From Candidatus Cloacimonadota bacterium (GTDB lineage Bacteria > Cloacimonadota > Cloacimonadia > Cloacimonadales > Cloacimonadaceae): 40,591 nucleotides of DNA. The stretch's first letter is position 1. Each line of letters begins with the position of its first letter. Location: positions 1 through 40,591 of the forward strand of contig JASKKR010000020.1 in NCBI GenBank assembly GCA_030154085.1. The letters are read 5' to 3'. A program made the translations under genes and the position numbers. Positions 12,485-27,264 of this stretch are shown piece after piece. The notes beneath the pieces are model-generated. The model was given only the letters and a program-made list of their open reading frames with translations, searched no databases and was not told where the DNA came from.

Positions 12485-13924
12485 CTATGTGCGGTCTATA
12501 AAGTCCGATCTCCATACCGGATCCATGACAGCAGCAATCTGTGCGTCATACTCTTCCATCTGTTTATGGTAAATATCGCTCTTCAAGGCATCCTCAGCAT
12601 AGGGATTAAGCGGTTTCGCGTCATTTTCTTTTAAAATCCTGAGAGCATCGCGGTGATGATCTCTCATGGGACATGGCATTAGCCTGTTTCCTATCTTATC
12701 CTTTTGCTGCATATACCCATATTCTCTCTGCCAGCTTCTGATGTCCTTGAAAAATTTTGTATTGAAGGCTGTATTCAAATCTCCGCCGGTTTTGTAGATA
12801 TCGCAAATATTTGCCGTATAATAGGGCATGAAAACACAGGGCGCAACATTGCCATTCCCATCTATATATGCCTGTCCTCCCTTTCTTCCTGCCGCAATAC
12901 AGCCATGACTCAGGTAACCGTTATTCCAAAAATCTACATATGAGTAACCCTTTTCCTCCATAATGTACTTGATTCTTTTGTACATATGTAACCGCTGTTC
13001 CGGAGTGACAGTGAGACTGAAATCGATGTCTCTCCCAATGGGCATATACTGAAATGCCCAGCCGAAAAGAGCTTTCTGTTTCTCAAAGTAGAAATCAACA
13101 AATTCATCAGATACAAGCAATTCGGCATTTTTCCGAGTCGGGGTAACCGATATACCGAATGGATTGCCCGCTTCGCGGAGATTCGCAAATGCCTGCAAGA
13201 CCTTTTCAAATACTCCCTTACCTCTTCTTGCATCTGTCTCGTTTTCGAATCCCTCAACTGAAATTGCCGGAGCCACATTACCTGCCTCGGCTATCTTTCT
13301 GACATTTTCTCTGGTGAGCTGTGTCCCGTTTGTATAAACCATAAAATATTGATTCTTATGCTTTGCAAACATGTCATAGATAGTTCTGTCACCGTCTCTC
13401 CACAGAAACGGCTCTCCACCAGTAATTGTCGTAAAATAGCTTTGCCACAGTTCCTCTTTCTCTGTCAGGATTCTGTCAAAGGTATCCCAGTCAAGGCTGG
13501 CAGCTGTGTCTTTGTTGCTGCCGGCGGAACAGCCAATACAGTTAAGATTACAGCGCATTGTGGGACTAATGACAAGGAGGGTCGGGTATTCCAAGTTACT
13601 TTCAGCATATGCCTTATCCTTGGCTGCCGGGGATTTGTAGAAAACATTGTCTACCATACTATTGAATATTTTTTTTAGAATATCCGGGGATAGCAGATTT
13701 TCATCCATTCTTTCGGAGGCTCTCATCAATAGATTTTTTACAAACCAGTATTGACCATCTAATTCTGCAGGCAGCTCATAGGGACTGTCCAGTTTTTCTG
13801 CGAAAAGGGCTTTAAGCTTCTTGTCTGATTCTGGCAGCAGCAAGTGTCTCATCTTGGAGTTGGTAAATATTAATTTAGATAACTCCTTCAAACCTAACCT
13901 TTTAACATTTTCATCAAGCTTCAT
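12485..13924 (-). CDS. Radical SAM protein, SPASM-like, function unknown
   Basis: 479 residues. An N-terminal helical region (1-110) precedes the radical SAM core with CX3CX2C (C125, C129, C132 in MRCNLNCIGC) and the GGEP motif (TTITGGEPFLW). The C-terminal part carries extra cysteines arranged like an auxiliary cluster domain (SHGCIAAGRKGG, GNGNVAPCVF, MPCPMRDH), so a second 4Fe-4S cluster is likely. Substrate unknown. SPASM-type enzymes often modify peptides, and a 14-codon reading frame lies just upstream (13938-13982). AGGAG precedes the ATG. The gene is isolated, sits beside IS debris, and its promoter region is duplicated at 25638-25800, all of which suggest acquisition by transfer. Confidence 0.85.
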   Translation of the reverse strand: MKLDENVKRLGLKELSKLIFTNSKMRHLLLPESDKKLKALFAEKLDSPYELPAELDGQYWFVKNLLMRASERMDENLLSPDILKKIFNSMVDNVFYKSPAAKDKAYAESNLEYPTLLVISPTMRCNLNCIGCSAGSNKDTAASLDWDTFDRILTEKEELWQSYFTTITGGEPFLWRDGDRTIYDMFAKHKNQYFMVYTNGTQLTRENVRKIAEAGNVAPAISVEGFENETDARRGKGVFEKVLQAFANLREAGNPFGISVTPTRKNAELLVSDEFVDFYFEKQKALFGWAFQYMPIGRDIDFSLTVTPEQRLHMYKRIKYIMEEKGYSYVDFWNNGYLSHGCIAAGRKGGQAYIDGNGNVAPCVFMPYYTANICDIYKTGGDLNTAFNTKFFKDIRSWQREYGYMQQKDKIGNRLMPCPMRDHHRDALRILKENDAKPLNPYAEDALKSDIYHKQMEEYDAQIAAVMDPVWRSDFIDRT

Positions 13925-13937
13925 AATAGCATCTCCT

Positions 13938-13982
13938 CTAATAACTATTGAGTCTCAAATGTTGATGTAAATTCCAACTCAT
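13938..13982 (-). CDS. Candidate micro-ORF in the radical SAM leader
   Basis: Fourteen codons reading MSWNLHQHLRLNSY and then TAG, ending just at the Shine-Dalgarno of the radical SAM gene. A homologous frame at 25752 begins MNWNVHQDLGLNTY, giving the shared pattern M-x-W-N-x-H-Q-x-L-x-L-N-x-Y. No good Shine-Dalgarno precedes it (only GAGAAACA). The differences between copies are not clearly concentrated in third positions, so coding is unproven. It could be a leader peptide, a peptide substrate of the neighbouring enzyme, or part of a conserved RNA. Confidence 0.3.
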   Translation of the reverse strand: MSWNLHQHLRLNSY

Positions 13983-14056
13983 TGTTTCTCTGGTTGTTCG
14001 AGAGCATCTGATCTCCCGCGTGACGCACAATCTATATTGATTAAACGAACGATTAC

Positions 14057-14085
14057 ATTATTTTACAATTTATAATTCCTGTCAA
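14057..14085 (-). promoter_or_regulatory. Promoter of the radical SAM gene (copy A)
   Basis: On the minus strand, TTGACA (14085-14080), a 17-bp spacer and AATAAT (14062-14057). The spacer shares ATAAATTGTAA with the copy at 25648-25676. It predicts a leader of about 125 nt before the radical SAM start. Confidence 0.6.
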
Positions 14086-14248
14086 GTTTTTTTTACCAAA
14101 ACTCACAGCACCTCCCAGTTTGAGACTATTCACAAAGCACAACCATACAGCGAAGGTCTCACACAATGCGTTATGCGTTATGCGTAGTATTTGACTAACA
14201 TCAGGACACCATATCAGTCCATAGCGTAATTGCCTCACGCCAGGCACC

Positions 14249-14338
14249 TCATCTGAAGATAGCAGGTTGTTTATGAAGATCAATGTATCTGGTTCTTTCG
14301 CTGTGATAGCATTTGTCGGCATAAACCGTATCGCCCAT
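14249..14338 (-). pseudogene. Degraded IS5-type transposase fragment
   Basis: On the minus strand the frame reads GDTVYADKCYHSERTRY, closely matching the second-aspartate block of IS5/IS4-type DDE transposases (usually VYADKGY-S). It stops after about 29 codons, and the flanks up to about 14480 and down to about 14100 are broken in several frames. It is therefore an inactive relic. The D in YADK would be the catalytic residue. The ends of the original element are not recognisable. It borders the promoter of the radical SAM gene on one side and the island promoter on the other. Confidence 0.55.
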
Positions 14339-14467
14339 TGACAAAGTATTCCTAATATAGTCGGTCGGAAGAAAGTCTATGTGCAGAGGTATTTGCGATA
14401 GTATACTTCCCTTTTTGTTTATTCTAGCTCTCGCTATATGGGTAATGTCTGTTTTTCGATTTGCCTA

Positions 14468-14495
14468 TTGACAGAATAATCCTGCTCTGTATAAT
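14468..14495 (+). promoter_or_regulatory. Consensus sigma-70 promoter of the island
   Basis: TTGACA at 14468-14473 and TATAAT at 14490-14495, both perfect, with a 16-bp spacer. It points into the HTH remnant (ATG 14577) and the helicase/methyltransferase genes, predicting a leader of about 75 nt. It is probably a strong promoter, perhaps held in check by the HTH product when that was intact. Confidence 0.7.
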
Positions 14496-14576
14496 GACAT
14501 TAATCAAATTTTATCCCATTTTACACTGATTTGATGAGGTTTCCAGATATAATTCCTCTGGAAAGGAGCTTATAGT

Positions 14577-14764
14577 ATGGAAGACAGATGGCTAACAGTC
14601 GAGGAACTTAATGTCCATCTTTGAGGGTCACATTGGATGCTATGTATAACTGGCAGAGTGCGAGGGAATTGCCAGCTCATAAGCTCGGTAGGTTATGGAA
14701 GTTTAAAAAAGAAGACATTGATGTATGGGTTAAGAACCAAGCCAATTTTTGTAAAAGACGATAG
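14577..14764 (+). pseudogene. Frameshifted excisionase-type HTH gene
   Basis: After GAAAGGAG, the ATG opens a frame reading MEDRWLTVEELNVHL and then TGA. In the -1 frame the rest follows at once: RVTLDAMYNW and then ELPAHKLGRLWKFKKEDIDV, ending at the TAG at 14762. Joined, this is a complete 60-residue excisionase/MerR-like DNA-binding domain (usual form LTVEE-YLGV--DTIY-W--LPAHK-GRLWKFKK--VD-W). A single frameshift near 14622 separates the halves, with no classical slippery heptamer. Small genes of this kind often precede restriction-modification operons as regulators. It ends 26 bp before the helicase gene. It is either a mutation, a sequencing error, or unusual recoding. Confidence 0.65.
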
Positions 14765-14790
14765 CGGCATTCAAAAAGGATTAGTAGCTA

Positions 14791-17700
14791 ATGAGTAATT
14801 TTATCACCAATACAGGCAGTGCACAGCTAAAGACCAGGCTTGTCACCCTTATCAAGGAAAGCCAGGAGTTAAAGTTCCTGGTAGGGTTCTTTTATTTCTC
14901 CGGGATCAGTGAGCTGATTGAGAGTTTGAAAGTCAATGCAGACCTATCTCTTAAGATACTGGTCGGTCTAAATGTGGACGCACAGAATTACGGTTTGGTT
15001 GAATACGCTGAAAAAGCTGGCAAGAAAAGAATCGAACGCATTGAAGACTATCATGAATCGGTACTGAAAGCCCTCAATAATGATGTCTTTGACAATGAGC
15101 TATTTTACAATCAAGCTGGCTACATCCTCGAACAAATCATTAATGGCAGGATTATCATCCGTAAGACATCCAGACCTAACCATGCGAAGCTCTATCTATT
15201 CAAACTTAAAGAAGATCAGGTAGTTCGCCCCAATCTCTTCATCACCGGGAGTAGTAACCTCAGCAAGGCAGGTCTCACCGATCGGGAAGAGTTTAATGTG
15301 GAAATCTCAGATTATGGCTTTGAAGAGGCAGAGAAATACTTTGATGAGCTTTGGAATTCTGCCATCCCGATTACTGAGACTGATATAGAGAAAACCAGGC
15401 TTATCTATAACGTCCGTGAAAATACACTACTGAAATCCGTCCATCCCTTCGATGCTTACATGTTTGTCGTAAAAACCTGGTTGGATAGTTTCTACAAACA
15501 AGAATCAGGCCGCTATATCTCACTCCTGCTGGAGAAAAAGGGCTACAAGCCTTTCAAATATCAGATTGATGCCGTCACACAAGCGCTTTCCATCATCGAA
15601 GATAATGGTGGAGTTATCTTGGCAGACGTAGTGGGCTTGGGTAAATCTATAATCGCTTCTTTGATAGCGCGTAAACTGGAGAAACGGGGCATCGTAATCT
15701 GTCCTCCCGGGCTAATCGGAGATGATAGTGCAAATTCGGGTTGGAAGAAGTATAAAGAGGACTTTGAATTGTATGATTGGGAAGTCCGCTCCGGAGGTGA
15801 TCTGGACGGTATAATTGAGTTCATTGGCAATACCGATGGCATCGAAGTGATCATAGTGGATGAAGCCCATCGTTATCGTAATAGCTCCACGGAAACCTAT
15901 GAAAAGCTGAAGACTATCTGTCGCGGCAGAAGTGTGATTCTGCTCACTGCAACTCCGTTTAATAACTCTCCCGCAGATATCCTTTCTTTACTCAGCCTGT
16001 TTATCGTCCCCAAGAAATCCAATATCACGCTCAGCAACAACCTGGTAGATCTTTTCCGGTTCTACAACGCCTTGTTCAAAGACCTCGCCTATATTCGCAA
16101 GAATTGGCAGTCCAAAGACCCGCTGAAGAAAGAGGAAGCCCGGAAGAAGTATCAGGCTCTGTTTGCAGAAAAAGAGGTCAAGATTAGCAAAGTCCTTGCC
16201 CGGGCTACTTTGCTCTCCCAACAGATCAGGGAAGTGATAGAACCTGTCACGATTAGAAGAAACAGGCTCGATCTGATCAATGACCCTGATTACCGTGATG
16301 AAGTTAAGAAGCTCTCCCAAATCGACAATCCCCAGGAGTGGTATTATCAGCTTACTCCTGAACAATCAGCTTTTTATGACCATGTGATTGAGCTTTATTT
16401 CACAGACAATCCCGAAAGTACGGAAAGGTTTAAGGGCCCTATATATAAGCCCTACCGCTATGAAGGTGATGAAACCAGTATGGAAAAACTCAGTCGGCAA
16501 GAGCAGATCGACCGCTTGAATCAGGATAACTTGTATGACATTTTGCGGCGACAGATGGTTAAACGCTTTGAGAGCTCATTTGGTGCCTTCCGGCAGAGCA
16601 TTGTTAATATTCGGGATTCCTATGAGAAAATCAAAGAGTTCATCAAGAGCTCAAACGGCAGATATGTGCTTAATCGCAAGCTGATAAACAAAGTGGATAG
16701 TGATGATCCCGACCAAATCGATGAATTGCTCCGCCAGTTCGCTGAAGAAAACAAAGATAAAGACAGCAAGAAAAACCGGATTTACGAGGTGAACAAATTT
16801 GCTTTCAAAGAGCAATTCTACGCCGATATTGAATCCGATATCTGTCTCTTTAACAAGATGATCACTGAGATTGATACCCTGGCTCTGGTAGAGAACGATC
16901 CCAAGCGTTTCGCCTTACTGCTGAATGTGGAAGCCACACTGCAAACATCACCAAACAAAAGAGAACCTGCTCCCAAAATCGTGATCTTCTCGGAGTATGC
17001 CGATACGGTCAAATACCTGGAGCCTGCTTTGAAAGAGCATTTCCCAGGTCGGGTTCTGGTTATCACGGGAAGTATCGGCAAACAGCATCTGGAAGAGATC
17101 AACACCAATTTTGACGCTGCCTATCCCAAATCTAAACAGAGGGATAACTACGATATACTGCTGTCTACTGATAAGCTCTCCGAAGGCTTCAACCTGAACC
17201 GGGCCGCAATGGTGATTAATTATGATATCCCCTGGAATCCAGTGCGGGTTATCCAGCGGGTGGGGCGTATCAACAGGATCAGTAAAAAAGTGTTTGATAC
17301 CCTCCACATCACCAATTTCTTCCCTACTGAGCAAGGTGCGGACATCGTAAAAAGCAGGGAGATTGCCTCAAATAAGATGTTTATGATCCATCAAACCCTG
17401 GGTGAAGACGCCCGCATCTTTGATGCTGATGAAGAGCCCAGCCCTGCCAAACTCTTTGCCAAAGTGCAAACCAATCCCTATGATCTGGATCAGGAAGGTC
17501 TCTACACCAAACTTAAGAAATTGATGCGGCTATGGGAAAAGCTTTATCCCGAAAGAGTAGAAGCCCTGGCAGAAATGCCAATTCGCATCAAAACCGCCAA
17601 AGCTTTTGACGTGGATTCGCTGGTCATGTTCATTCGCAAGGGTAAGCTCTTTAGCGTTAGCCAGGACTTCATGGATGAAAACAAGCAACTGATACCTCTC

Positions 17701-18150
17701 CCCATCGAGGAAGCACTACTTAGGATAGAATGCAGTCCGGACACAACGCAATTGCCTCTCAGTAAGAGTTTTTGGGAGGATTACAAAATGCTGAAAGAAG
17801 AAGCGGAAAAGTTCAGCTTCAAACAATCCCAACAGAGCAATTCGGTGAAGGCATTCAACTTCCTTTCTTACTTATTGGAGCAGGAAATAAGCGAACTTGT
17901 CCCTTGGCGATCATTCCTGATCATGCTCCGTGATGACATAGAAAACTATGGTACTTTGCCGGAATATACGCTTAAAAGCATCTGTGATTGGGAAAACGGC
18001 GGGAAGCCGGATTATCAGGTAATTGCCCAAGAATTGGAAAAACTGAGTAAGACCCTGGGCAAGAACTACCTGAAAAAAGTTAAAGATAGCCTGAAAGCCT
18101 ATGAACAACAGGTGATTGTGGCTATTGAAAACCAAGCAAAGGATATGTAG
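14791..18150 (+). CDS. PLD-domain SNF2/SF2 helicase (defence-type translocase)
   Basis: 1119 residues. The N-terminal phospholipase D-type nuclease domain has one HxK motif (H131, K133 in HAKLYLF) and the downstream GSSNLSKAGL (153-162). A single motif implies a dimer for activity, as in the BfiI class. An SNF2-type motor follows: Walker A ADVVGLGKS (about 275-283), DEAH in IIVDEAHRYRN (about 356-359), LLTATPFNNSP, and motifs V-VI STDKLSEGFN and QRVGRINRISK (about 820). The long C-terminal region is unassigned. The methyltransferase gene follows directly, so the pair resembles a restriction-modification system in which the motor-nuclease acts on unmodified DNA. DISARM-type systems also use PLD and SNF2 proteins, but no DrmA or DrmB is seen here. 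Confidence 0.85.
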   Translation: MSNFITNTGSAQLKTRLVTLIKESQELKFLVGFFYFSGISELIESLKVNADLSLKILVGLNVDAQNYGLVEYAEKAGKKRIERIEDYHESVLKALNNDVFDNELFYNQAGYILEQIINGRIIIRKTSRPNHAKLYLFKLKEDQVVRPNLFITGSSNLSKAGLTDREEFNVEISDYGFEEAEKYFDELWNSAIPITETDIEKTRLIYNVRENTLLKSVHPFDAYMFVVKTWLDSFYKQESGRYISLLLEKKGYKPFKYQIDAVTQALSIIEDNGGVILADVVGLGKSIIASLIARKLEKRGIVICPPGLIGDDSANSGWKKYKEDFELYDWEVRSGGDLDGIIEFIGNTDGIEVIIVDEAHRYRNSSTETYEKLKTICRGRSVILLTATPFNNSPADILSLLSLFIVPKKSNITLSNNLVDLFRFYNALFKDLAYIRKNWQSKDPLKKEEARKKYQALFAEKEVKISKVLARATLLSQQIREVIEPVTIRRNRLDLINDPDYRDEVKKLSQIDNPQEWYYQLTPEQSAFYDHVIELYFTDNPESTERFKGPIYKPYRYEGDETSMEKLSRQEQIDRLNQDNLYDILRRQMVKRFESSFGAFRQSIVNIRDSYEKIKEFIKSSNGRYVLNRKLINKVDSDDPDQIDELLRQFAEENKDKDSKKNRIYEVNKFAFKEQFYADIESDICLFNKMITEIDTLALVENDPKRFALLLNVEATLQTSPNKREPAPKIVIFSEYADTVKYLEPALKEHFPGRVLVITGSIGKQHLEEINTNFDAAYPKSKQRDNYDILLSTDKLSEGFNLNRAAMVINYDIPWNPVRVIQRVGRINRISKKVFDTLHITNFFPTEQGADIVKSREIASNKMFMIHQTLGEDARIFDADEEPSPAKLFAKVQTNPYDLDQEGLYTKLKKLMRLWEKLYPERVEALAEMPIRIKTAKAFDVDSLVMFIRKGKLFSVSQDFMDENKQLIPLPIEEALLRIECSPDTTQLPLSKSFWEDYKMLKEEAEKFSFKQSQQSNSVKAFNFLSYLLEQEISELVPWRSFLIMLRDDIENYGTLPEYTLKSICDWENGGKPDYQVIAQELEKLSKTLGKNYLKKVKDSLKAYEQQVIVAIENQAKDM

Positions 18151-18151
18151 C

Positions 18152-21100
18152 ATGAGTAAGATTGTTTTATCCCAAAACTTTTCTATCGACAACTGGCTAG
18201 ACTATTTCGATGCTCACTCGAATTATTTCACTCTCCTAAACTCTCATTCACGCCATTATCAAAATGATGATTTCAATACAGTTATCCAACTTGGAGTTAT
18301 AGAATTACCTGAAGGTAATGATGTATCTGTGTTTCTGATAAGTTCGACCCAGCAACTAAATGAGCGGTCTTACCGCAAGAAGCAATTTAATAAATCTGTT
18401 GATATCCTAAAAGCAGAAAACTCCCAGGCCGGTTTGTTTATATTTCATGATAATGATTACAGCTTTCGCCTAAGTCTTGTGTATCCTGTTTATAAGGGCA
18501 CAAGGAGAGGCTTTAGCAGTTTTAAACGTTTCTCGTACTATATTTCTGCAGAAACGCCTCATCACACCTACGAACAGCAACTTAGTCTGGTAAGATTTGA
18601 TGATCTGGCGACGATAAAGAGAGCGTTTTCTGTTGAACCAGTTACCAATGAATTCTTTATCGAAGTATCATTGAAATTCCTAGAACTGGTTAGTGGAGAA
18701 AGAAGGATTGGAAACAAATCATACAAATATCCTGGCATTTTGGTGCTGCCAACCTCAAACCCCGAAGCTAAGAAGGAATTTGCAGTCAGATTGTTGGGCA
18801 GACTCATCTTTTGCTGGTTTTTGAAGCTAAAAAAGTCAAAAAATAAAGTACCGCTAATCCCCAACCATCTGCTATCAACCGATGCTGTTGCACAGTTTAC
18901 AGACAGTAGTTACTACCACAGCATCATTGAACCTTTATTCTTCGAAGTACTTAACAAACACAAAGATAATCGAATATCAAAGTATCGAGGAGAATTTTGG
19001 GATACTATCCCGTTTCTGAACGGAGGACTCTTTGAACATGATAACATAGATTATTACTCACTAACAGAAACCGGAATATCAGTCTTCTTAAATACGGTTA
19101 AGATCCCCAATAAATGGTTTATGGACTTGTTTACGGTTTTCGAACGCTACAATTTTACCGTAGATGAATCTACCAGCTCCGACATCGAAATAGCCGTAGA
19201 TCCTGAAATGCTGGGAAAAATATTTGAAAATCTCTTGGCAGAATTAGATAAAGACACTGGAGAAACCGCCAGAAAAAAAACCGGTAGTTATTACACACCC
19301 CGTGATGTGGTAGATTACATTGTAAATACCAGCTTATATCATTACCTGTCAAGCCATCTTTCCATTGATGAACAAGCTATCCTACAATTGATTGAAACGC
19401 CTGATAACCCACCTTCGCTGCAGCCAGATGATATTAACCAGATACTTAATGTGATTAGCTCATTGAAGATTATGGATCCGGCTTGCGGTAGTGGAGCTTT
19501 TGTAATGGGAGCCATGCAGAAGATGATGGAGATTATCAAAGAATTGGATCCAAAATCCGATTATTGGAAAGGTAAGATTTTAAAAAGCATCGTTGATCCA
19601 GTATTCAAGCGCTACATAGAGGACAAGTTAAAGACAGAAAACCTCTATTATATAATAAAACTCGGTCTTATTAGGGACAACATTTACGGTAATGATATCC
19701 TTACTATGGCGGTGGAAATCTCAAAATTACGTTTTTTCCTATCTCTGATTGTAGATGAGACCATAGATGATGATAAAGACAACCGCGGTATCCTGGCTTT
19801 GCCTAATCTGGATTTTAAGTTTATTGCTGCAGATTATGTACTCGATTTGGCATCCTCAATAATGCATAATGCGAATTATTCCCCATATGTAACCGAACTC
19901 AAAGATATCATAGATAACTACTTCACAGCTTATGGATCAGAAAAGGAACAAATAAAACATCAATTCATTGTTAAGCAGAGGGAAATCAGTTTTAAACTAT
20001 CGCAATCTGCTCTATTAACACCGGATATTGCTGAACTACTCAATTGGAATCCCTTTTCTAATACCTCTGTTGATTGGTTTAACCCGGAATGGATGCTGGG
20101 TCTGAATGAGGATTTTGATATTATCATAGCCAATCCACCCTATGTGAGTAACAAGAATACTGATAAGAAAAAAGTACCGCTATACGTAGATAAATACGGC
20201 TTCTCCGATGACCTGTACAATTACTTTTTTATCCGTTCTTTGGATTTGGTCAAAACGGGAGGCATCCTTTCTTTTATAACCTCAAACACATACTTGTCAA
20301 TAAACTCAAAGCAAAACCTAAGAACGGCATTTCTTGATAACAGGATTATCGAGATATTCAAAATCGATAACCCCTTTGAGAATCCTATGGTCTCACCCGC
20401 CATCATAACCATACAGAAAACTGATGAATTCAAGAACTATGATTTAAGGTACAAGATTGCTGAAGAGCGGGAGGATTTCCTTGATCCCGCCGAATACAAT
20501 ATCAACACCTCAGTCTTCAAGAATACTGCCTTCAATACTTTTTTCCCTCCCACTGAGTTCAACATGCGGGTTTGGGATAAGTATGGAAAACAGATCAAAA
20601 GGCTTATAACTCAATACTGGTCTATGATTGATTCCAGTAAGGGTATCGCTAAGAACCAAAAGTACCTTGAGGAGTATCGCAGCTCATTAAAGCCTGGCGA
20701 TCTTACACTGCTGGGTCTGATAACTGAAGGTGGGCAAGGTTTGGCTACTGCAGATAATGGCAGATTTGTGGGTGTACGGGATAAAACCAAAGAAGCGTAC
20801 CGGATTAAAGCCACCAGAGCCCAGAAATTACTCAAGGCAGTAGTAAGTAAAAACATCCACAATCTTGGGATAGATTCATTACAGGATGCGAGAGACCTGC
20901 TTGCTGATATGGAAGAATTGGAGATAAGAGAGATGTTCAGTAGTTTGAAAAGTGGATATGGCAGGGACATTTTTGGCAGTGGTTATCTCTATCAGATTAT
21001 ATCAGAAAGCGAGATTGCTGACCCGGCAAAGATGAGTCCAGCCGATATTAGCAAAGGTATTGCGTCTGATAAACCTCACTTTGTTCCTTATGACAAAGGT

Positions 21101-21628
21101 GACAAGGACGGCAACCGCTGGTTCTTGGTCACCCCATATTGCCTTGACTGGTCAGAAGAAAGCGTACTTTATTATCAGACTAGTACTAATTGTAGGTGGC
21201 AAGGTTATAACTTCTATTTCCGTGAAGGCTTTTGTTGGAGTGATATAAACACGGTATACCTAAAATGCAGACTCAAGGGTAAAAGCGTCCACGATGTAAA
21301 GAGCATGAGTTTGTTTACACTAATTCCGAGCATTCCTGATTGGTTCTACGTTTGCATAATAAACTCATCATTCATTAGCGAGTACGTTAACGACTTTTTA
21401 AACAATACACAGACCTTCCAGATAAATGATGCCAGGCAACTACCGATAATTATCCCTTCCCAAGATCAGCTTGAGGAGTTTCACTGCATCTTCAATGATG
21501 CCTATGCGATAAAGCTTATGCAGTTTGCCGATGAGATATCGAAAAGCAAAGCGGAAGAGAAACTGGCACAGATACAACAGAACCTGGATGCCTATGTTTT
21601 AGATTATTACGGATTTAGCAATAATTGA
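18152..21628 (+). CDS. Eco57I-type N6-adenine DNA methyltransferase
   Basis: 1158 residues from the ATG at 18152, chosen because AAAGGA precedes it and it follows the helicase stop by one base; an upstream in-frame ATG lies inside the helicase gene. The N-terminal region (1-370) has the FLNGGLFE segment typical of Eco57I/type IIG-like enzymes. Then come KTGSYYTPRDVVDYI, the SAM-binding motif DPACGSGAF (about 441-449), NIYGNDI, and the catalytic NPPY (about 661-664 in IIANPPYVSNK). The C-terminal third looks like a target-recognition region (FQINDARQLPIIIPSQDQ). BREX PglX is related in architecture, but no other BREX genes are present. I see no certain nuclease motif of its own. Confidence 0.88.
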   Translation: MSKIVLSQNFSIDNWLDYFDAHSNYFTLLNSHSRHYQNDDFNTVIQLGVIELPEGNDVSVFLISSTQQLNERSYRKKQFNKSVDILKAENSQAGLFIFHDNDYSFRLSLVYPVYKGTRRGFSSFKRFSYYISAETPHHTYEQQLSLVRFDDLATIKRAFSVEPVTNEFFIEVSLKFLELVSGERRIGNKSYKYPGILVLPTSNPEAKKEFAVRLLGRLIFCWFLKLKKSKNKVPLIPNHLLSTDAVAQFTDSSYYHSIIEPLFFEVLNKHKDNRISKYRGEFWDTIPFLNGGLFEHDNIDYYSLTETGISVFLNTVKIPNKWFMDLFTVFERYNFTVDESTSSDIEIAVDPEMLGKIFENLLAELDKDTGETARKKTGSYYTPRDVVDYIVNTSLYHYLSSHLSIDEQAILQLIETPDNPPSLQPDDINQILNVISSLKIMDPACGSGAFVMGAMQKMMEIIKELDPKSDYWKGKILKSIVDPVFKRYIEDKLKTENLYYIIKLGLIRDNIYGNDILTMAVEISKLRFFLSLIVDETIDDDKDNRGILALPNLDFKFIAADYVLDLASSIMHNANYSPYVTELKDIIDNYFTAYGSEKEQIKHQFIVKQREISFKLSQSALLTPDIAELLNWNPFSNTSVDWFNPEWMLGLNEDFDIIIANPPYVSNKNTDKKKVPLYVDKYGFSDDLYNYFFIRSLDLVKTGGILSFITSNTYLSINSKQNLRTAFLDNRIIEIFKIDNPFENPMVSPAIITIQKTDEFKNYDLRYKIAEEREDFLDPAEYNINTSVFKNTAFNTFFPPTEFNMRVWDKYGKQIKRLITQYWSMIDSSKGIAKNQKYLEEYRSSLKPGDLTLLGLITEGGQGLATADNGRFVGVRDKTKEAYRIKATRAQKLLKAVVSKNIHNLGIDSLQDARDLLADMEELEIREMFSSLKSGYGRDIFGSGYLYQIISESEIADPAKMSPADISKGIASDKPHFVPYDKGDKDGNRWFLVTPYCLDWSEESVLYYQTSTNCRWQGYNFYFREGFCWSDINTVYLKCRLKGKSVHDVKSMSLFTLIPSIPDWFYVCIINSSFISEYVNDFLNNTQTFQINDARQLPIIIPSQDQLEEFHCIFNDAYAIKLMQFADEISKSKAEEKLAQIQQNLDAYVLDYYGFSNN

Positions 21629-21677
21629 TCACATGTATGGTTATATATACTGACTAAAGTTACATTAGGAGTTTAAC

Positions 21678-22103
21678 ATGGACGGACATCATTGCTCAGA
21701 ATGCGCCCAAAAAAATCATGGGTTCAATCCAAATATTTATGACACAATTAACTTCACGGGTAGCAGCTATTTGCTTGGAAAGTATCTCAAACACACGCAA
21801 TTCATGAGTGGATCTGGAGCTATTTCAGTTTATGCATCATCTGATTACGATGATTATAGAAATTGTTTGTTAATATCTATCAACTCAGGATCAGTTGATA
21901 TCGCCAATGGGGTTGCTGTTAGTGCTGTTTGGAATGCATATCAGTTTCTTGGTGATACTTCTATTAATGGAGTTTATTCACATCCGTGTTTTGAAAACAA
22001 AGTGGTCAAGTTGGATGATTTATCAAAGACACATGGCTACTGCACTAATTCGTTTTCTATCCCTAATGGTTATTGTGTAGATTGTGGAAAACTAATTCAA
22101 TGA
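21678..22103 (+). CDS. Unknown small protein with terminal CxxC pairs
   Basis: 141 residues; I do not recognise the family. A CxxC pair lies at each end (HHCSECAQK near residue 7 and GYCVDCGKLIQ near the C-terminus). The two ends could therefore meet in one zinc site, with the middle domain between them (SGSGAISVYASSDYDDY, ISINSGSVDIANGVAVSA). No signal peptide or membrane segment is visible. AGGAG precedes the ATG. It lies 49 bp after the methyltransferase stop, in the same direction, and its stop overlaps the next start by 4 bp. A role in the island's system is inferred only from position. Confidence 0.7.
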   Translation: MDGHHCSECAQKNHGFNPNIYDTINFTGSSYLLGKYLKHTQFMSGSGAISVYASSDYDDYRNCLLISINSGSVDIANGVAVSAVWNAYQFLGDTSINGVYSHPCFENKVVKLDDLSKTHGYCTNSFSIPNGYCVDCGKLIQ

Positions 22104-22321
22104 TAAATGCAAAACTAATGTGCTTTGAAATACTGCCTTCGTCTGTGACATCACGAATAATAGCTGTTTTTCGATGCCAGTCCATTGCTTGGCAGAAAAG
22201 ACCGGGACGAAGTGTCTGTCTAACTCTTGGATTGACTGACCTGGAGATTAAAGAGCTATATGCTGGAATGCTTGAGCTGACAGCTAATAGACTCAGGAAA
22301 GCTAAGACATTCGTAAATTAG
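22100..22321 (+). CDS. Unknown 73-residue protein
   Basis: The start at 22100 overlaps the previous stop as ATGA, so translation is probably coupled; no independent Shine-Dalgarno is visible. The product begins MINAKLMCFEILPSS and has a basic middle (IAWQKRPGRSV) and a helical end (LGLTDLEIKELYAGMLE). The C-terminal helix is amphipathic. The family is not recognised. The next gene begins 17 bp later after a full AGGAGGTGAT. It is probably real given the spacing, but the evidence is limited. Confidence 0.5.
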   Translation: MINAKLMCFEILPSSVTSRIIAVFRCQSIAWQKRPGRSVCLTLGLTDLEIKELYAGMLELTANRLRKAKTFVN

Positions 22322-22338
22322 GAGGTGATGTAATTCTT

Positions 22339-23439
22339 ATGGCAACTCACAACATTGTTACATACCCAGGAAAGCCCTATTATGCATGCAAGTACGAGGA
22401 GCAGACCAAGATCAAACATCAAGTCTTCGCTTCGTACTTCGACACATGGGTCAAAATCGTTGGTAAAGATAGCCCTCTAAACTTCATTGATTGTTTTGGT
22501 GGTTGTGGGCTATATGATGATAATGGTAACCTACAACCAGGTAGTCCTATCATCGCAGCCCAGATTATTGAGCAGAATGCTATCTCTCTCAAAAGAGATT
22601 GTTGTGTTACAATACTTGATATTGATAAGAATTGCACGGATAACATTCCTCAGGCCTTCAAACTATTTAATTGCAATTGCAGTTATGAGTTAATCAACGC
22701 CGATTTCGAAGCATACATCAATACCGAGCTTGCTATGTTAGAAGCTAAAGGAAAAACACTTAGTCCCACATTCTTTTTGATAGATCCATATGGGTATAAA
22801 ATCAAGCTAGAAACAATAAAACGCCTTATGTCTGTAAAAAACAGCGAAGTTTATTTCAATTTTATGTTCAATGCCGTTAATAGAGGCATCAGTTCAGGTA
22901 AAGTTGACAATACAATGGATGAACTTTTCGGCTGCACTGAATGGAGGGATTGCCAACAGCTTCATGGAATTGAACGAGAAGCGTGCATTGTAGACTTGAT
23001 AAGGAACCAATTCAAGCAGTTCTCGAGATACGTCCTCCCATACAGGATATGTTTTCCATCGATAGATCGGACTTACTTTTATATGATTCATTTGACTAAC
23101 CATGTAAGAGGATGTGAGATTATGAAGGCATGTTTTGCCGAGTTGAATCATGGAAAGATAGAGTATATTGGTAAAAATCAGAATCAGAGCTTCATTTTCG
23201 ATCTAATTGAAGATCCTGTCCAAGAGATCGAATCATATATTAGCACTAATTTCAAGAATTCCCGAGAGTCATTCGATGAGTTACTTGATAAAATGATAGA
23301 TACAACACCATATCTTGGCAAAGACATATCTTCTGCAGTATTAAGTCTATACAACAGACAGTTGGCGAATATTAGGCGTGTTTCATCGAAGAGGCAAAGC
23401 AGTAAACCGACCAAAAAAGACATAATTGAGATTTACTAA
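22339..23439 (+). CDS. tcmP: Three-Cys-motif partner protein TcmP
   Basis: 366 residues. The N-terminal part has the TcmP pattern KHQVFASYFDTW followed by NFIDCFGGCGLYDDNG and PGSPIIAAQII, a Rossmann methyltransferase-like fold in which family members usually read F-AGPG; here it is FGGCG. A second block is FFLIDPYGYK, with FNFMFNAVNRG after it. TcmP proteins almost always sit next to a radical SAM protein of the phage Gp37/Gp68 (DUF5131) type, and that partner follows here after 2 bp. The function of the pair is unknown. A perfect AGGAGGTGAT lies 9 bp before the ATG. The FGGCG change may matter for cofactor binding. Confidence 0.85.
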   Translation: MATHNIVTYPGKPYYACKYEEQTKIKHQVFASYFDTWVKIVGKDSPLNFIDCFGGCGLYDDNGNLQPGSPIIAAQIIEQNAISLKRDCCVTILDIDKNCTDNIPQAFKLFNCNCSYELINADFEAYINTELAMLEAKGKTLSPTFFLIDPYGYKIKLETIKRLMSVKNSEVYFNFMFNAVNRGISSGKVDNTMDELFGCTEWRDCQQLHGIEREACIVDLIRNQFKQFSRYVLPYRICFPSIDRTYFYMIHLTNHVRGCEIMKACFAELNHGKIEYIGKNQNQSFIFDLIEDPVQEIESYISTNFKNSRESFDELLDKMIDTTPYLGKDISSAVLSLYNRQLANIRRVSSKRQSSKPTKKDIIEIY

Positions 23440-23441
23440 TA

Positions 23442-25274
23442 ATGATAAGAAAAACCTTGCTTTACAAAACAGGGGTTGAATACGGCGACTACACAATTAA
23501 CCATGTGTTGGGTTGTTCTCATGGTTGCAATTATCCCTGTTACGCATTTATGATGGCCCGTAGATTTGGACGAGTCAAAGACTATAATGACTGGTTACAA
23601 CCCAAGCTGGTGGAAAATTCACTGGACTTATTACGGAAAGAGATTCCCAAAAAACAGAAAAGCATTAAATCCGTGCATCTTTGTTTTACCACCGATCCAT
23701 TCATGGCTGAGTATCCCGAAGTAACCGAGATGAGCCTTGAAATCATCAAGTTGCTGGATCATTACGGTATCAAATGCACAGCACTTACCAAGGGAGTACT
23801 ACCTTCAGAACTTTCAAGATTTGATGATAAGCATGAATGGGGCATTTCTTTGGTTTCTTTAAATGAAGATTTTAGAAAGCATTATGAGCCCTTTTCTGCA
23901 GATTATACCACACGCTTAGCGAGTATGAAAAACTTGCACGATTGGGGTTGTAAAACATGGGTTAGCATAGAGCCTTATCCAACGCCTAATATTGTTGAGC
24001 AAGACTTGCGAGTCTTGCTTGATAGAGTTTCCTTTACTGATAGGATTATCTTTGGCAGGTTGCACTATAACAAGTTAGTATCAGCCTATATGGGATTTCA
24101 GGATTTCTACGATGATGCGATAACATCAGTAGTTACCTTTTGTAAGAGGCGAGGTATAGACTACCATATAAAAGAGAAAACGACTACCAAAGATTCTATC
24201 GAATACATTGAAAGAATAACGAAACCTGTGATCCCAATTCTGCATCATAATGATGCCAAGGATTTTAAACAATTCCAAAACTATCTAAACTATGCTGATC
24301 TTCCGGATAGCTACACCAACCTTTTATTCAAGTTAAAACTCGACAATTCTAAACTCAAAAAAACAATCAAGAAGTTATCAGATTCTAATAATAGCATTCA
24401 TTTCTTACATGAACTTATTGTAGGATATTCTCTTAATGAGTATTGCAAGAGGAACTCATTAAAGCTTGAGTACTCTCCGGAATGTAAATATTCAAATGAC
24501 GAAAAAACAGCAACTCCAGATTGGATTGTGTATGATGGAAACAAGAAAGTATTGATTGAAGTTGTCACTACAGATAAAAGCAAGCGACAAAGTGCCTTCA
24601 ACGCTTGTATTGGTTTGATACACAGCCTTGCTAGGGAGGGGTTAAAAAGCAATGGTATGAATACTGATCTTGATTTCAAAACGTCTAGGTTCAAAATACC
24701 TACTTTTCAAAATAAATTGGAAAAGCAAGTATTAACAGAATTTTGTAGGGTAGTTTCCAATAGAATTATCGCTAAAGTGATGCTTGGATATGGAATAGAT
24801 GAGTATGCAACTGATGATAGTGGTCTTAAGTTTAAAATAGGGTCAGGAGGCAAATCACACATGACAACTTGTGGGCATAAAACGTATAGAGTGGTTAACA
24901 ACATTCTTGATAAAGGAATGGCTTACAAAGAATTATCCAAGCAGATACCCATAATCGTGGCTGTGGCTGATAATCACAAAAACAGATCAGAAGCATACTC
25001 CCCCCAAGAAATAGCAAAGCTTCTTTACTACCCTAACACCGTCTATGAGTATCAGTTCAACAGGATAACCGATAAAGAAAAGCATATTAAGAATATACAA
25101 GACCGCATAGAAGATTTGAATGTACTGGAAGGCATTTTATTTTACGGTATCAATGTCAGCAGTATATATACAACTATTTATGAGTATTATCCGAATCCCC
25201 ACAAGACCACGAAGTGGGAAATTCCAGATAGATTCAAAGCTTACTTGGACGGAAGTAGTAATGAATGCATATAA
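23442..25274 (+). CDS. Three-Cys radical SAM protein (DUF5131/Gp37-like) with C-terminal extension
   Basis: 610 residues, about twice the usual length. Residues 1-270 form a radical SAM-like barrel of the spore-photoproduct-lyase/DUF5131 kind, with C25, C29 and C33 (GCSHGCNYPCYAFMMARRFG) spaced CX3CX3C, VHLCFTTDPFM and CTALTKGVLP. From about residue 310 a second domain begins. Around D360 and E373 (TPDWIVYDGNKKVLIEVVT) it resembles the PD-(D/E)XK nuclease core, although the lysine position after the glutamate is valine. The end of the gene overlaps the next start by 14 bp. It pairs with TcmP just upstream. A nucleic-acid-modifying role is a reasonable guess, unproven. Confidence 0.82.
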   Translation: MIRKTLLYKTGVEYGDYTINHVLGCSHGCNYPCYAFMMARRFGRVKDYNDWLQPKLVENSLDLLRKEIPKKQKSIKSVHLCFTTDPFMAEYPEVTEMSLEIIKLLDHYGIKCTALTKGVLPSELSRFDDKHEWGISLVSLNEDFRKHYEPFSADYTTRLASMKNLHDWGCKTWVSIEPYPTPNIVEQDLRVLLDRVSFTDRIIFGRLHYNKLVSAYMGFQDFYDDAITSVVTFCKRRGIDYHIKEKTTTKDSIEYIERITKPVIPILHHNDAKDFKQFQNYLNYADLPDSYTNLLFKLKLDNSKLKKTIKKLSDSNNSIHFLHELIVGYSLNEYCKRNSLKLEYSPECKYSNDEKTATPDWIVYDGNKKVLIEVVTTDKSKRQSAFNACIGLIHSLAREGLKSNGMNTDLDFKTSRFKIPTFQNKLEKQVLTEFCRVVSNRIIAKVMLGYGIDEYATDDSGLKFKIGSGGKSHMTTCGHKTYRVVNNILDKGMAYKELSKQIPIIVAVADNHKNRSEAYSPQEIAKLLYYPNTVYEYQFNRITDKEKHIKNIQDRIEDLNVLEGILFYGINVSSIYTTIYEYYPNPHKTTKWEIPDRFKAYLDGSSNECI

Positions 25275-25629
25275 TGAAACGAAGTATATTTCTCCCAATG
25301 AAAAAAAGGAGCTACTTGAAGTGATGGATAATCACTATCAGACATATCTGAGAGCAAGGTCTCTCACGCCCTTCCTAGACAAAACGATGATTGATAGACT
25401 TTTATCCTGTAAAACAAGAACCTGCTTCGATATCCCTACATCAACATTATACCAAAGCTTGGGCTATGATTGCCGTATAGTATTGAATTCGAGCCAGTTC
25501 GACACTAAGGAGAAGTGTCAGCAGTATCAGGATATCGGGCATTGGATTAACCAGAGTTTCTTTATTGAATTGAAATGCATTCTTGACACATTTATAAATT
25601 GGAAGGACAACCCGTCGCAGCAAGGTTGA
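25261..25629 (+). CDS. Unknown 122-residue protein ending the island
   Basis: The start at 25261 (MNAYNETKYISPNEKKEL) lies inside the end of the radical SAM gene, with GGA a few bases before it; a longer frame from 25120 would overlap too much. The product is charged, with a helical beginning (ISPNEKKELLEVMDNHYQTY) and a mixed core with cysteines (LLSCKTRTCFD, GYDCRIVLNSS). No membrane segment or known motif is seen. It is the last gene of the run, and the duplicated promoter block starts directly after it. Probably co-expressed with TcmP and the radical SAM protein. Confidence 0.65.
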   Translation: MNAYNETKYISPNEKKELLEVMDNHYQTYLRARSLTPFLDKTMIDRLLSCKTRTCFDIPTSTLYQSLGYDCRIVLNSSQFDTKEKCQQYQDIGHWINQSFFIELKCILDTFINWKDNPSQQG

Positions 25630-25647
25630 TTATTTATGAAAAAGAAC

Positions 25648-25676
25648 TTGACATGGAATATAAATTGTAAAATAAT
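25648..25676 (+). promoter_or_regulatory. Promoter copy B, in front of the outer-membrane protein
   Basis: TTGACA (25648-25653), a 17-bp spacer and AATAAT (25671-25676), matching the minus-strand copy at 14057-14085 nearly base for base. The predicted leader to the ATG at 25874 is about 190 nt. Confidence 0.55.
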
Positions 25677-25751
25677 GCAATTGGTCGCTCGGTCTTACAA
25701 AGATTGAGAGTAATGCGGAATATTAGATGCCCTCATACAAACTGAGAAACA

Positions 25752-25847
25752 ATGAATTGGAATGTACACCAAGATTTGGGACTCAACACATACACAAGCC
25801 AGAGAAGCAATGAATTGGTTCTTATGGTAGTATGGGAACCAATGTAA
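25752..25847 (+). CDS. Candidate micro-ORF in promoter block B
   Basis: A 31-codon frame beginning MNWNVHQDLGLNTY, the relative of the 14-codon frame at 13938-13982, with an extra tail ending VVWEPM and TAA. It stops 26 bp before the outer-membrane protein ATG. No convincing Shine-Dalgarno is present. A further part-copy of the local sequence (CAGAGAAGCAATGAATTGG, about 25800-25818) lies inside it. Coding is possible but not shown. Confidence 0.25.
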   Translation: MNWNVHQDLGLNTYTSQRSNELVLMVVWEPM

Positions 25848-25873: not shown

Positions 25874-27022
25874 ATGAAGCATCTTGTTTTATGTTCTATG
25901 TTTTTGTTTATGGTCAGTCTAGGAGCGATCTCATCACCTGCCTTACTGACTTTGTCATTTGAAACTTCGGCGACGACCCATGCCATGGGAGGATACAACA
26001 CCACAGTGGCTAATGCCTGGAATAGCGATCCGCTGATGAGCTACACCAATCCGGCACTGGCCGCGTTTCAAGAAGGATTTTCTTATTCAGTGATCAAGTA
26101 TAAGTGGCTGCCCGATGCTTTTGACGACTACTATTATCATGCCGCTTTTGCTGTTATCGGATATAAGGGCATAGCGCTTAGTTTGCCCGCCTTAAATCAA
26201 AACAGCGATTGGGGAATCCATATGGATTATGGTGAGCAGGAGCAAAGGGATTCGGCAGGAAACAACCTGGGGACTTCCCATTCTTACGACGCCTACAAAG
26301 CTTATGGTTTGGCCATCAATCCCTTGGAGACCTACCGTGAATTCACCAATAATCCTCATCCTTTGCTAAATCACTTCGACCTGGCTTTGGGACTGAGCTA
26401 CATTGATATAGATTCATTTCTGGCACCTCCCCCCGGGTTTTCGGAATCCGTGGGCAAGACTGATACCAATATCTACAATCTGGGGCTGCTGGCCAAAGCT
26501 AACTACAGATTTGGTGATTATCTGAATGCAGAAGGATCATTTGGTCTGACCCGCTTTAACCCGGAAAACAAGAAGGTGAGCTATACTGAAGATATAGAAG
26601 CTGATCCCATTGTGCGCTATCGTAACACTGGGTTTGGAGTGTTTTGCTCCGTTCCGTTGGAGCTGATTCGGGATTATCTTCCCACTGAGTATATGTTTAC
26701 AGACAATCTCATTTCCCTGAAGTGGCTTCATGGACAGCAGGATATGCTATTTGGCTACGATGATGAGATTACGACGGGCTATGGGATGGAACTGGGATTG
26801 CTGGATACCATCTATCTCCGACAAGGCTATTACGACGATGAAGCAGGCCATATTACCGGCGACACCAAAGGCTTTGGCATCAATCTCCATTACAAGGACT
26901 ACTTTGCAATAAAATACAATAGTGCAAGCTTCCCCGGAGGAGATCTCACCAAAGAACACAAATCCCATGACATGGGGGTGAATATAAACTTCTTGAAGGT
27001 CATGGAAGCTATTCAGAATTGA
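25874..27022 (+). CDS. PorV-like outer-membrane beta-barrel protein
   Basis: 382 residues with a signal peptide (about 1-20, LVLCSMFLFMVSLGAISS). The N-terminal HAMGGYNTTVANAWNSDPLM and SYTNPALAAF match the PorV/PorQ (UPF0164-like) start, where a GMGGA segment and a NPA segment are typical. Repeating amphipathic strands follow to the end. AAAGGAG precedes the ATG. Such proteins sit in the outer membrane and in FCB bacteria often serve secretion; the exact role is unknown. It lies outside the island but takes its transcript from promoter block B. No convincing terminator is seen after it. Confidence 0.75.
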   Translation: MKHLVLCSMFLFMVSLGAISSPALLTLSFETSATTHAMGGYNTTVANAWNSDPLMSYTNPALAAFQEGFSYSVIKYKWLPDAFDDYYYHAAFAVIGYKGIALSLPALNQNSDWGIHMDYGEQEQRDSAGNNLGTSHSYDAYKAYGLAINPLETYREFTNNPHPLLNHFDLALGLSYIDIDSFLAPPPGFSESVGKTDTNIYNLGLLAKANYRFGDYLNAEGSFGLTRFNPENKKVSYTEDIEADPIVRYRNTGFGVFCSVPLELIRDYLPTEYMFTDNLISLKWLHGQQDMLFGYDDEITTGYGMELGLLDTIYLRQGYYDDEAGHITGDTKGFGINLHYKDYFAIKYNSASFPGGDLTKEHKSHDMGVNINFLKVMEAIQN

Positions 27023-27264
27023 TGCCGGTTTATCTTGGCGCCGCTATCCCAATGTGCAACGTTGCGGGCTAAGGTTCTGTTTGTGCCTGCTACAGAAACT
27101 CTGTGACACCCATCTTCACTGAGATCAATTGCTATCAAAACAGAGGGTGGAATCCAGCTCAACTTTTTTCTTAATCAGGCTGATGCTAATTTACGGCAAA
27201 TTTTGAGACACTACTGCTCAAGTTGGTTGAGGCATAAAGTTAAGTTACTTTCTCTATTGATACC

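Follow-up and report, generated by a model that had tools for sequence, protein, structure and literature searches.

That insertion sequences (IS) switch on neighbouring genes, as single events under selection, is already well known. In the account given by PMC9208149, the Vandecraen review is credited with 40 IS that carry complete outward-directed promoters, and the same account refers to the putative mobile promoters, or promoter propagation, of Matus-Garcia et al. (2012). Among IS of the IS256 family, ISCth4 has a structurally solved enzyme (PDB 6XG8), and TGTAAA is the family's inverted-repeat motif (PMC7780238). Here we analyse a stretch of 40,591 nucleotides from a Candidatus Cloacimonadota bacterium (contig JASKKR010000020.1 of assembly GCA_030154085.1; this whole stretch is called the window), in which two outward-facing promoter-leader blocks flank a gene island. 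Judged by their sequence, these blocks are the right ends (RE, about 170 bp) of an IS256/Mutator-family IS, and it is very probable that they stem from separate insertions and have been kept as promoter and leader of host genes. What stands out is that, in a phylum that is largely uncultured, many genomes have the promoter end of this one IS family in front of genes.

The left block, a solo RE on the minus strand (13947..14100; nhmmer 118 bits, E=1.5e-34), ends at 13947 and points left to a radical SAM gene. It carries a -35 box TTGACA (14080..14085, minus strand) and, after a 17-bp spacer, a -10 box AATAAT (14057..14062, minus strand), and its promoter score is 12.0, where random 65-mers average 6.2. 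The right block, a solo RE of the same family on the plus strand (25612..25787; 137 bits; over 177 nt it matches the IS consensus at 87%), points right and ends at 25787, with TTGACA at 25648..25653 and, at the same 17-bp spacing, AATAAT at 25671..25676 (both on the plus strand). An earlier sequence-only reading of the window had reported that the two blocks match and have both hexamers and the spacer in common, and so they do: a host-genome search and alignment pair the minus strand from 14094 to 13948 with the plus-strand block from 25639 at 78% over 147 nt (E=3.6e-28). The right-hand block begins at 25612, however, earlier than that reading supposed. Outside the promoter hexamers, identity does not fall to background (65% in the leader segments and 87% in the terminal segments), and the promoter core matches at 84% over 25 nt, with a 19-nt run, TATAAATTGTAAAATAATG, that is the longest identical run between the blocks.

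These blocks are not a private pair, and the search for further copies that the same reading had proposed revealed many relatives in the host and in related genomes. One block, used as query against the whole host genome (1.95 Mb in 42 contigs), gave a dozen strong matches, while a 119-nt probe gave 16 copies in this genome and about 197 matches in 26 of 40 related Cloacimonadota genomes, with copies from different genera matching one consensus at up to 98%. Nearly all strong copies share the same final base (...GGGACTCAAC), beyond which the DNA is unrelated. When GTDB-species contigs were scanned for the terminal motif, 24 stretches were found, of which 21 came from records with Cloacimonadota or Cloacimonetes in the title; the motif also occurs in metagenome-assembled (MAG) contigs labelled Fermentimonas, Firmicutes and Atribacteria (L256, L263, L267), by mis-binning or transfer. 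In one genome of the same genus as the host (G005), 11 contigs have the same promoter sequence at their ends. It is always the repeat's right side that is found there, which means that the repeat continues leftward beyond the block. About 12 identical RE contig ends of this genome pair with about 11 identical left-end (LE) contig ends (e.g. L076-L083). The identical copies of the IS in G005, about 11-12 in number, are a recent burst that broke the assembly, several of them apparently lying inside coding sequence.

What lies to the left is a transposase. A Mutator-family transposase stands directly left of the block in L073, and a transposase query found the gene just upstream of blocks in several genomes; the protein of the intact IS matches PF00872 (E=5.9e-54) and the ISCth4 structure 6XG8 (E=2.2e-41). 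Complete copies are about 1.57 kb long and consist, in this order, of a left inverted repeat (IRL, GGTAGTGTCTCAAAGGTTGGTGTAAATT), one transposase gene (416-431 aa, starting 111-128 nt inside the element) and the block, which ends in the right inverted repeat (IRR). In intact copies, the IRR, whose reverse complement is GTTGAGTCCCAAATGTTGGTGTAAATT, matches the IRL at 78-91% over 22-28 nt; by this match, the IRR of the right window copy is at 25761..25787 (plus strand). Both inverted repeats contain TGTAAA. In L119, the IS spans 1573 bp, encodes a transposase of 431 aa and is flanked by a perfect 9-bp target duplication (TGGAAACAA); elsewhere, a partial duplication (6/8) is seen in L120 and none is recognisable in the other intact units. 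It is because of the intact copies, the transposase homology and the TGTAAA-bearing inverted repeats that the promoter-leader block can be read as an IS256-family RE. Eight LE..RE deletion derivatives were found as well. Two other readings were dropped: (i) that the terminal ACTCAAC/GTTGAGT is an integron attC site, abandoned once the transposase and both inverted repeats had been found, and (ii) that the copies represent a TnpB-type guide RNA or a retroelement truncated at its 5' end, abandoned because short matches are diverged rather than truncated and the parent element has a Mutator transposase. Two further features of the element were observed, namely a long palindrome (GCGACGGGCTGGAGCCCTGC...GCAGGGCTCCAGCCCGTCGC) upstream of the RE in L075, L084 and L085, at the 3' end of the transposase gene, whose final residues it encodes, and an ATG in the conserved IRR tip of most copies (window 25752-25787, for instance), from which a short frame (MSWNLHQHLGLN...) continues past the end of the IS into the flank.

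Within the RE, the alignment shows that the promoter boxes are kept: CTTGAC is nearly invariant and A2 and T6 of the -10 box are retained in 53 of 59 solo copies, whereas the 17-bp spacer is only about 40-50% conserved. Left ends have weak promoter-like sites only, with a -35 match of 4/6. The leader between promoter and tip has some conserved structure, in DNA or RNA, because a hairpin (GAGGR...YCCTC) shows compensatory changes, with 5.27 of 6 pairs formed across 89 copies against 5.05 (s.d. 0.037) when the arms are permuted; its position in the right window copy, where it is imperfect, is 25715..25734 (plus strand). This short covarying hairpin came from a targeted test, RNAalifold having found almost no common structure over the full RE alignment, and Rfam 15 covariance models gave no match at the gathering cut-off in the window. 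As for the suggestion in the sequence-only reading that the block might be a leader RNA, the leader is the right end of an IS and has no Rfam family, although a small covarying hairpin does exist.

Position relative to genes is a further line of evidence. From 130 copies gathered with their flanks, 123 distinct ones with enough downstream DNA were kept, and a sense open reading frame (ORF) with an ATG and a ribosome-binding site starting 5-120 nt beyond the IS tip was counted as a gene start. Among solo REs, 35/63 are followed by such a start; the figure is 10/29 for REs near transposase sequence and 7/31 for those at contig edges (mostly recent copies), which makes 52 of 123 overall, and the proteins encoded downstream are mostly unrelated. 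By the same count, a gene start lies outward from only 1 of 37 left ends (Fisher P=1.6e-8 against solo REs) and 56 of 711 random intergenic positions (8%; Fisher P=2e-19). The copies show no specificity for radical SAM genes or island edges, which the sequence-only reading had proposed as something to check. The proteins encoded downstream of REs are predicted lipoproteins or have a predicted signal peptide or transmembrane segment in 33 of 48 cases, compared with 63 of 287 for other genes of the same loci (P=4e-10). Retention across species is seen in one orthologous lipoprotein gene (84% identical), which is preceded by an RE in both the host and G011, at distances of 45 and 42 nt, respectively, the two REs having diverged upstream of the tip apart from the promoter boxes. 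Some downstream genes are homologous to each other (35% identity for L198/L221, both in G009, and 27% for L181 in G005 and L199 in G007), hinting at RE-gene units that were duplicated, or repeatedly recruited within one protein family.

A simple scenario would account for these features. The RE of the intact IS holds all parts of a sigma70-type promoter, which is directed outward and lies some 110-140 bp inside the tip. In a circular intermediate with RE and LE joined, this promoter would read into the transposase gene; the principle of a junction promoter is established for copy-out/paste-in elements (PMC7780238). An insertion with the RE first, upstream of a host gene, would place this gene under the RE promoter, and decay of the transposase and left end would then leave an RE that selection may retain as promoter and 5' leader. 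In the window, one RE would drive the radical SAM gene and the other an outer-membrane protein gene. Near-identical promoters are indeed found before non-homologous genes, which is the hallmark of a mobile promoter, and this idea, put forward in the sequence-only reading, was right in substance, the carrier being the promoter-bearing RE of an IS256-family IS.

The most serious challenge to recruitment is that the enrichment before genes might reflect nothing but the insertion preference of the IS (for 5' untranslated regions, in a fixed orientation) rather than later selection, which we consider improbable, if worth keeping in mind. A precedent exists in the Mutator-type transposases of TnGBS and ISLre2, which target sites upstream of promoters and keep a fixed orientation (PMC3942029), and 17 of 60 transposase-linked or contig-edge copies already sit before genes; insertion of the IS256 family itself, however, has been found to be random (PMC3942029), and several identical young copies in G005 are inside coding sequence. 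The proportion doubles from these 17/60 to the 35/63 of solo copies (P=0.003), and REs outnumber LEs 197:88 with probes of similar length, an asymmetry seen by genome in the host (16:7), the closed genome G020 (8:3) and G015 (5:0), the recent burst in G005 being balanced. Several points nevertheless weigh against recruitment: (i) the RE and LE queries behind these ratios differ in length and information content, (ii) the secreted-protein calls come from a crude heuristic signal-peptide prediction, (iii) an insertion preference just upstream of genes could yield part of the enrichment, IS-linked and edge copies being already at 28%, (iv) a clean target duplication is present in one intact copy only, (v) the activity of the RE promoter is deduced from its consensus and conservation, and (vi) the common promoter core of the window pair is left unexplained by independent insertion. 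In 2,989 pairs of copies whose leaders are comparably diverged, no run exceeds this 19-nt core, which may stem from local gene conversion or reflect a shared operator. As far as sequence can tell, the block is an IS right end with a conserved promoter, placed before genes and asymmetric between RE and LE.

Could the two REs instead delimit a mobile unit? IS256-type composite transposons, such as Tn4001, are known. In the window, an 11.7-kb RE-RE unit carrying the defence island, or a 13.3-kb unit bounded by the RE at 13947 and the LE remnant at 27215, might have been moved by an IS256-type transposase, since the ends come from one element family in inverted orientation and RE(-) 13947 and LE(-) 27215 have the correct relative polarity. 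This LE remnant (27132..27215, minus strand; nhmmer E=1.8e-12, 79% over 81 nt) and the two REs are all that the window holds of the IS, with no IS transposase ORF. The flanks of the RE/LE unit differ (CTAATAACT vs GCTCAAGTT) and those of the two REs do not match either, the REs differ in age (end branches of 0.10 and 0.32), and the right one truncates an island gene, so that a composite transposon seems quite unlikely. Nor is the insertion of the island, as envisaged in the sequence-only reading, supported, no target duplication having been found around the two blocks or the RE/LE pair. The radical SAM and outer-membrane genes flanking the island are themselves accessory, and in no relative do typA and the PorU-like gene, which border the region, occur on the same contig. 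A pair of REs around an island needs no special cause, because about 16 REs placed uniformly in 1.95 Mb should by chance give about 1.4 pairs within 11.5 kb, and the outward orientation of the REs is most likely coincidental. Compared with Tn4001, in which a gene block is likewise flanked by inverted IS256-family sequences, the window pair has no target duplication, no transposase and ends of unequal age.

Less likely still is a capture by the IS of an old Cloacimonadota family of regulatory RNAs or promoters, to which the leader would then belong. The covarying hairpin and the orthologous gene preceded by the leader in two species would fit; solo copies, however, stop at the IS terminus with its terminal inverted repeat, this repeat, common to the left end, is the best-conserved part of the block, and the eight LE..RE derivatives and the lack of an Rfam match also speak against such a capture. 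As for an inverted duplication able to flip the island (phase variation), also envisaged in the sequence-only reading, we regard it as very improbable. In its favour, the copies are inverted, and their identical promoter core of 19 nt has no counterpart in any other comparable pair. Against it, the nearest whole-element relatives of each copy are IS copies in other genomes, no recombinase gene is present among the ORFs and families examined, and homologous recombination is unlikely between copies that are 78% identical overall and nowhere identical for more than 19 nt.

Returning to recruited IS ends, the genes concerned in the window can be described as follows. The radical SAM gene (12485..13924, minus strand; PF04055) has its ATG 22 nt beyond the IS terminus and would be transcribed from the left RE promoter; its product weakly resembles models of the viperin type and of mycofactocin maturase, with a score far below cut-off for the maturase model. 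On the other side, a gene for a PorV-like outer-membrane protein (25874..27022, plus strand; PorV family match below cut-off) has its ATG 86 nt beyond the terminus and would be transcribed from the right RE promoter. The last island gene (25261..25629, plus strand) is cut by this RE: its product (BLASTP 65% over 118 aa, ending at WKDNP) matches a 202-aa G005 protein up to residue 122, stopping where the RE begins, and a full-length homologue is encoded in L149. Because homology stops at the start of the RE, the gene must have been cut by a deletion or insertion that accompanied the arrival of this RE. The island (14791-25629) also encodes a PLD+SNF2 helicase (best PADLOC match DrmD / HKD+Snf2), a type IIG-like Eco57I methyltransferase/restriction protein, a TcmP protein that scores above cut-off for TIGR04474, and a DUF5131-like radical SAM protein similar to the PADLOC candidate pair PDC-M30A/B.

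These findings suggest a promoter source for some surface genes of Cloacimonadota. A bolder and more speculative extension is that the phylum has repeatedly recruited a transposable RE promoter-plus-leader for secreted proteins and lipoproteins, giving a transposon-wired expression network, possibly under common regulation. If so, scattered surface genes would share one promoter and a structured 5' leader, and the 19-nt core of the window pair would mark a common site of control or have been left by gene conversion. Since left ends of the same element serve as an internal control, insertion and retention are separable, and this control, the age series and the ortholog in two species together make the long-term recruitment of bacterial transposon promoters measurable.

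How does this IS compare with what has been described? It resembles ISCth4 and IS256 in its Mutator-type transposase, single gene, size (about 1.5 kb), imperfect TGTAAA repeats, 8-9 bp duplication and capacity to drive neighbours. In ISCth4/IS256, however, a -35 box in the IRR must join a -10 box in the IRL or flank (PMC7780238), whereas the RE here contains both boxes as a complete pair, located 110-140 bp inside its tip and followed by a leader of about 105 nt; the window copies also differ from IS256-family IS in being devoid of transposase and target duplication. With the outward-promoter IS listed in the Vandecraen review, as relayed in PMC9208149, it has in common a complete promoter inside the IS that drives flanking genes, and differs from those listed in that most copies are worn-down REs, at least one of which has been kept across species, with a marked bias towards secreted proteins. 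A further parallel is with the mobile promoters of Matus-Garcia et al., as summarised in the same source, where near-identical promoters precede unrelated genes of one genome; here, unlike in that summary, the carrier is identified as the RE of an IS256-family IS, and comes with a left-end control and a decay series.

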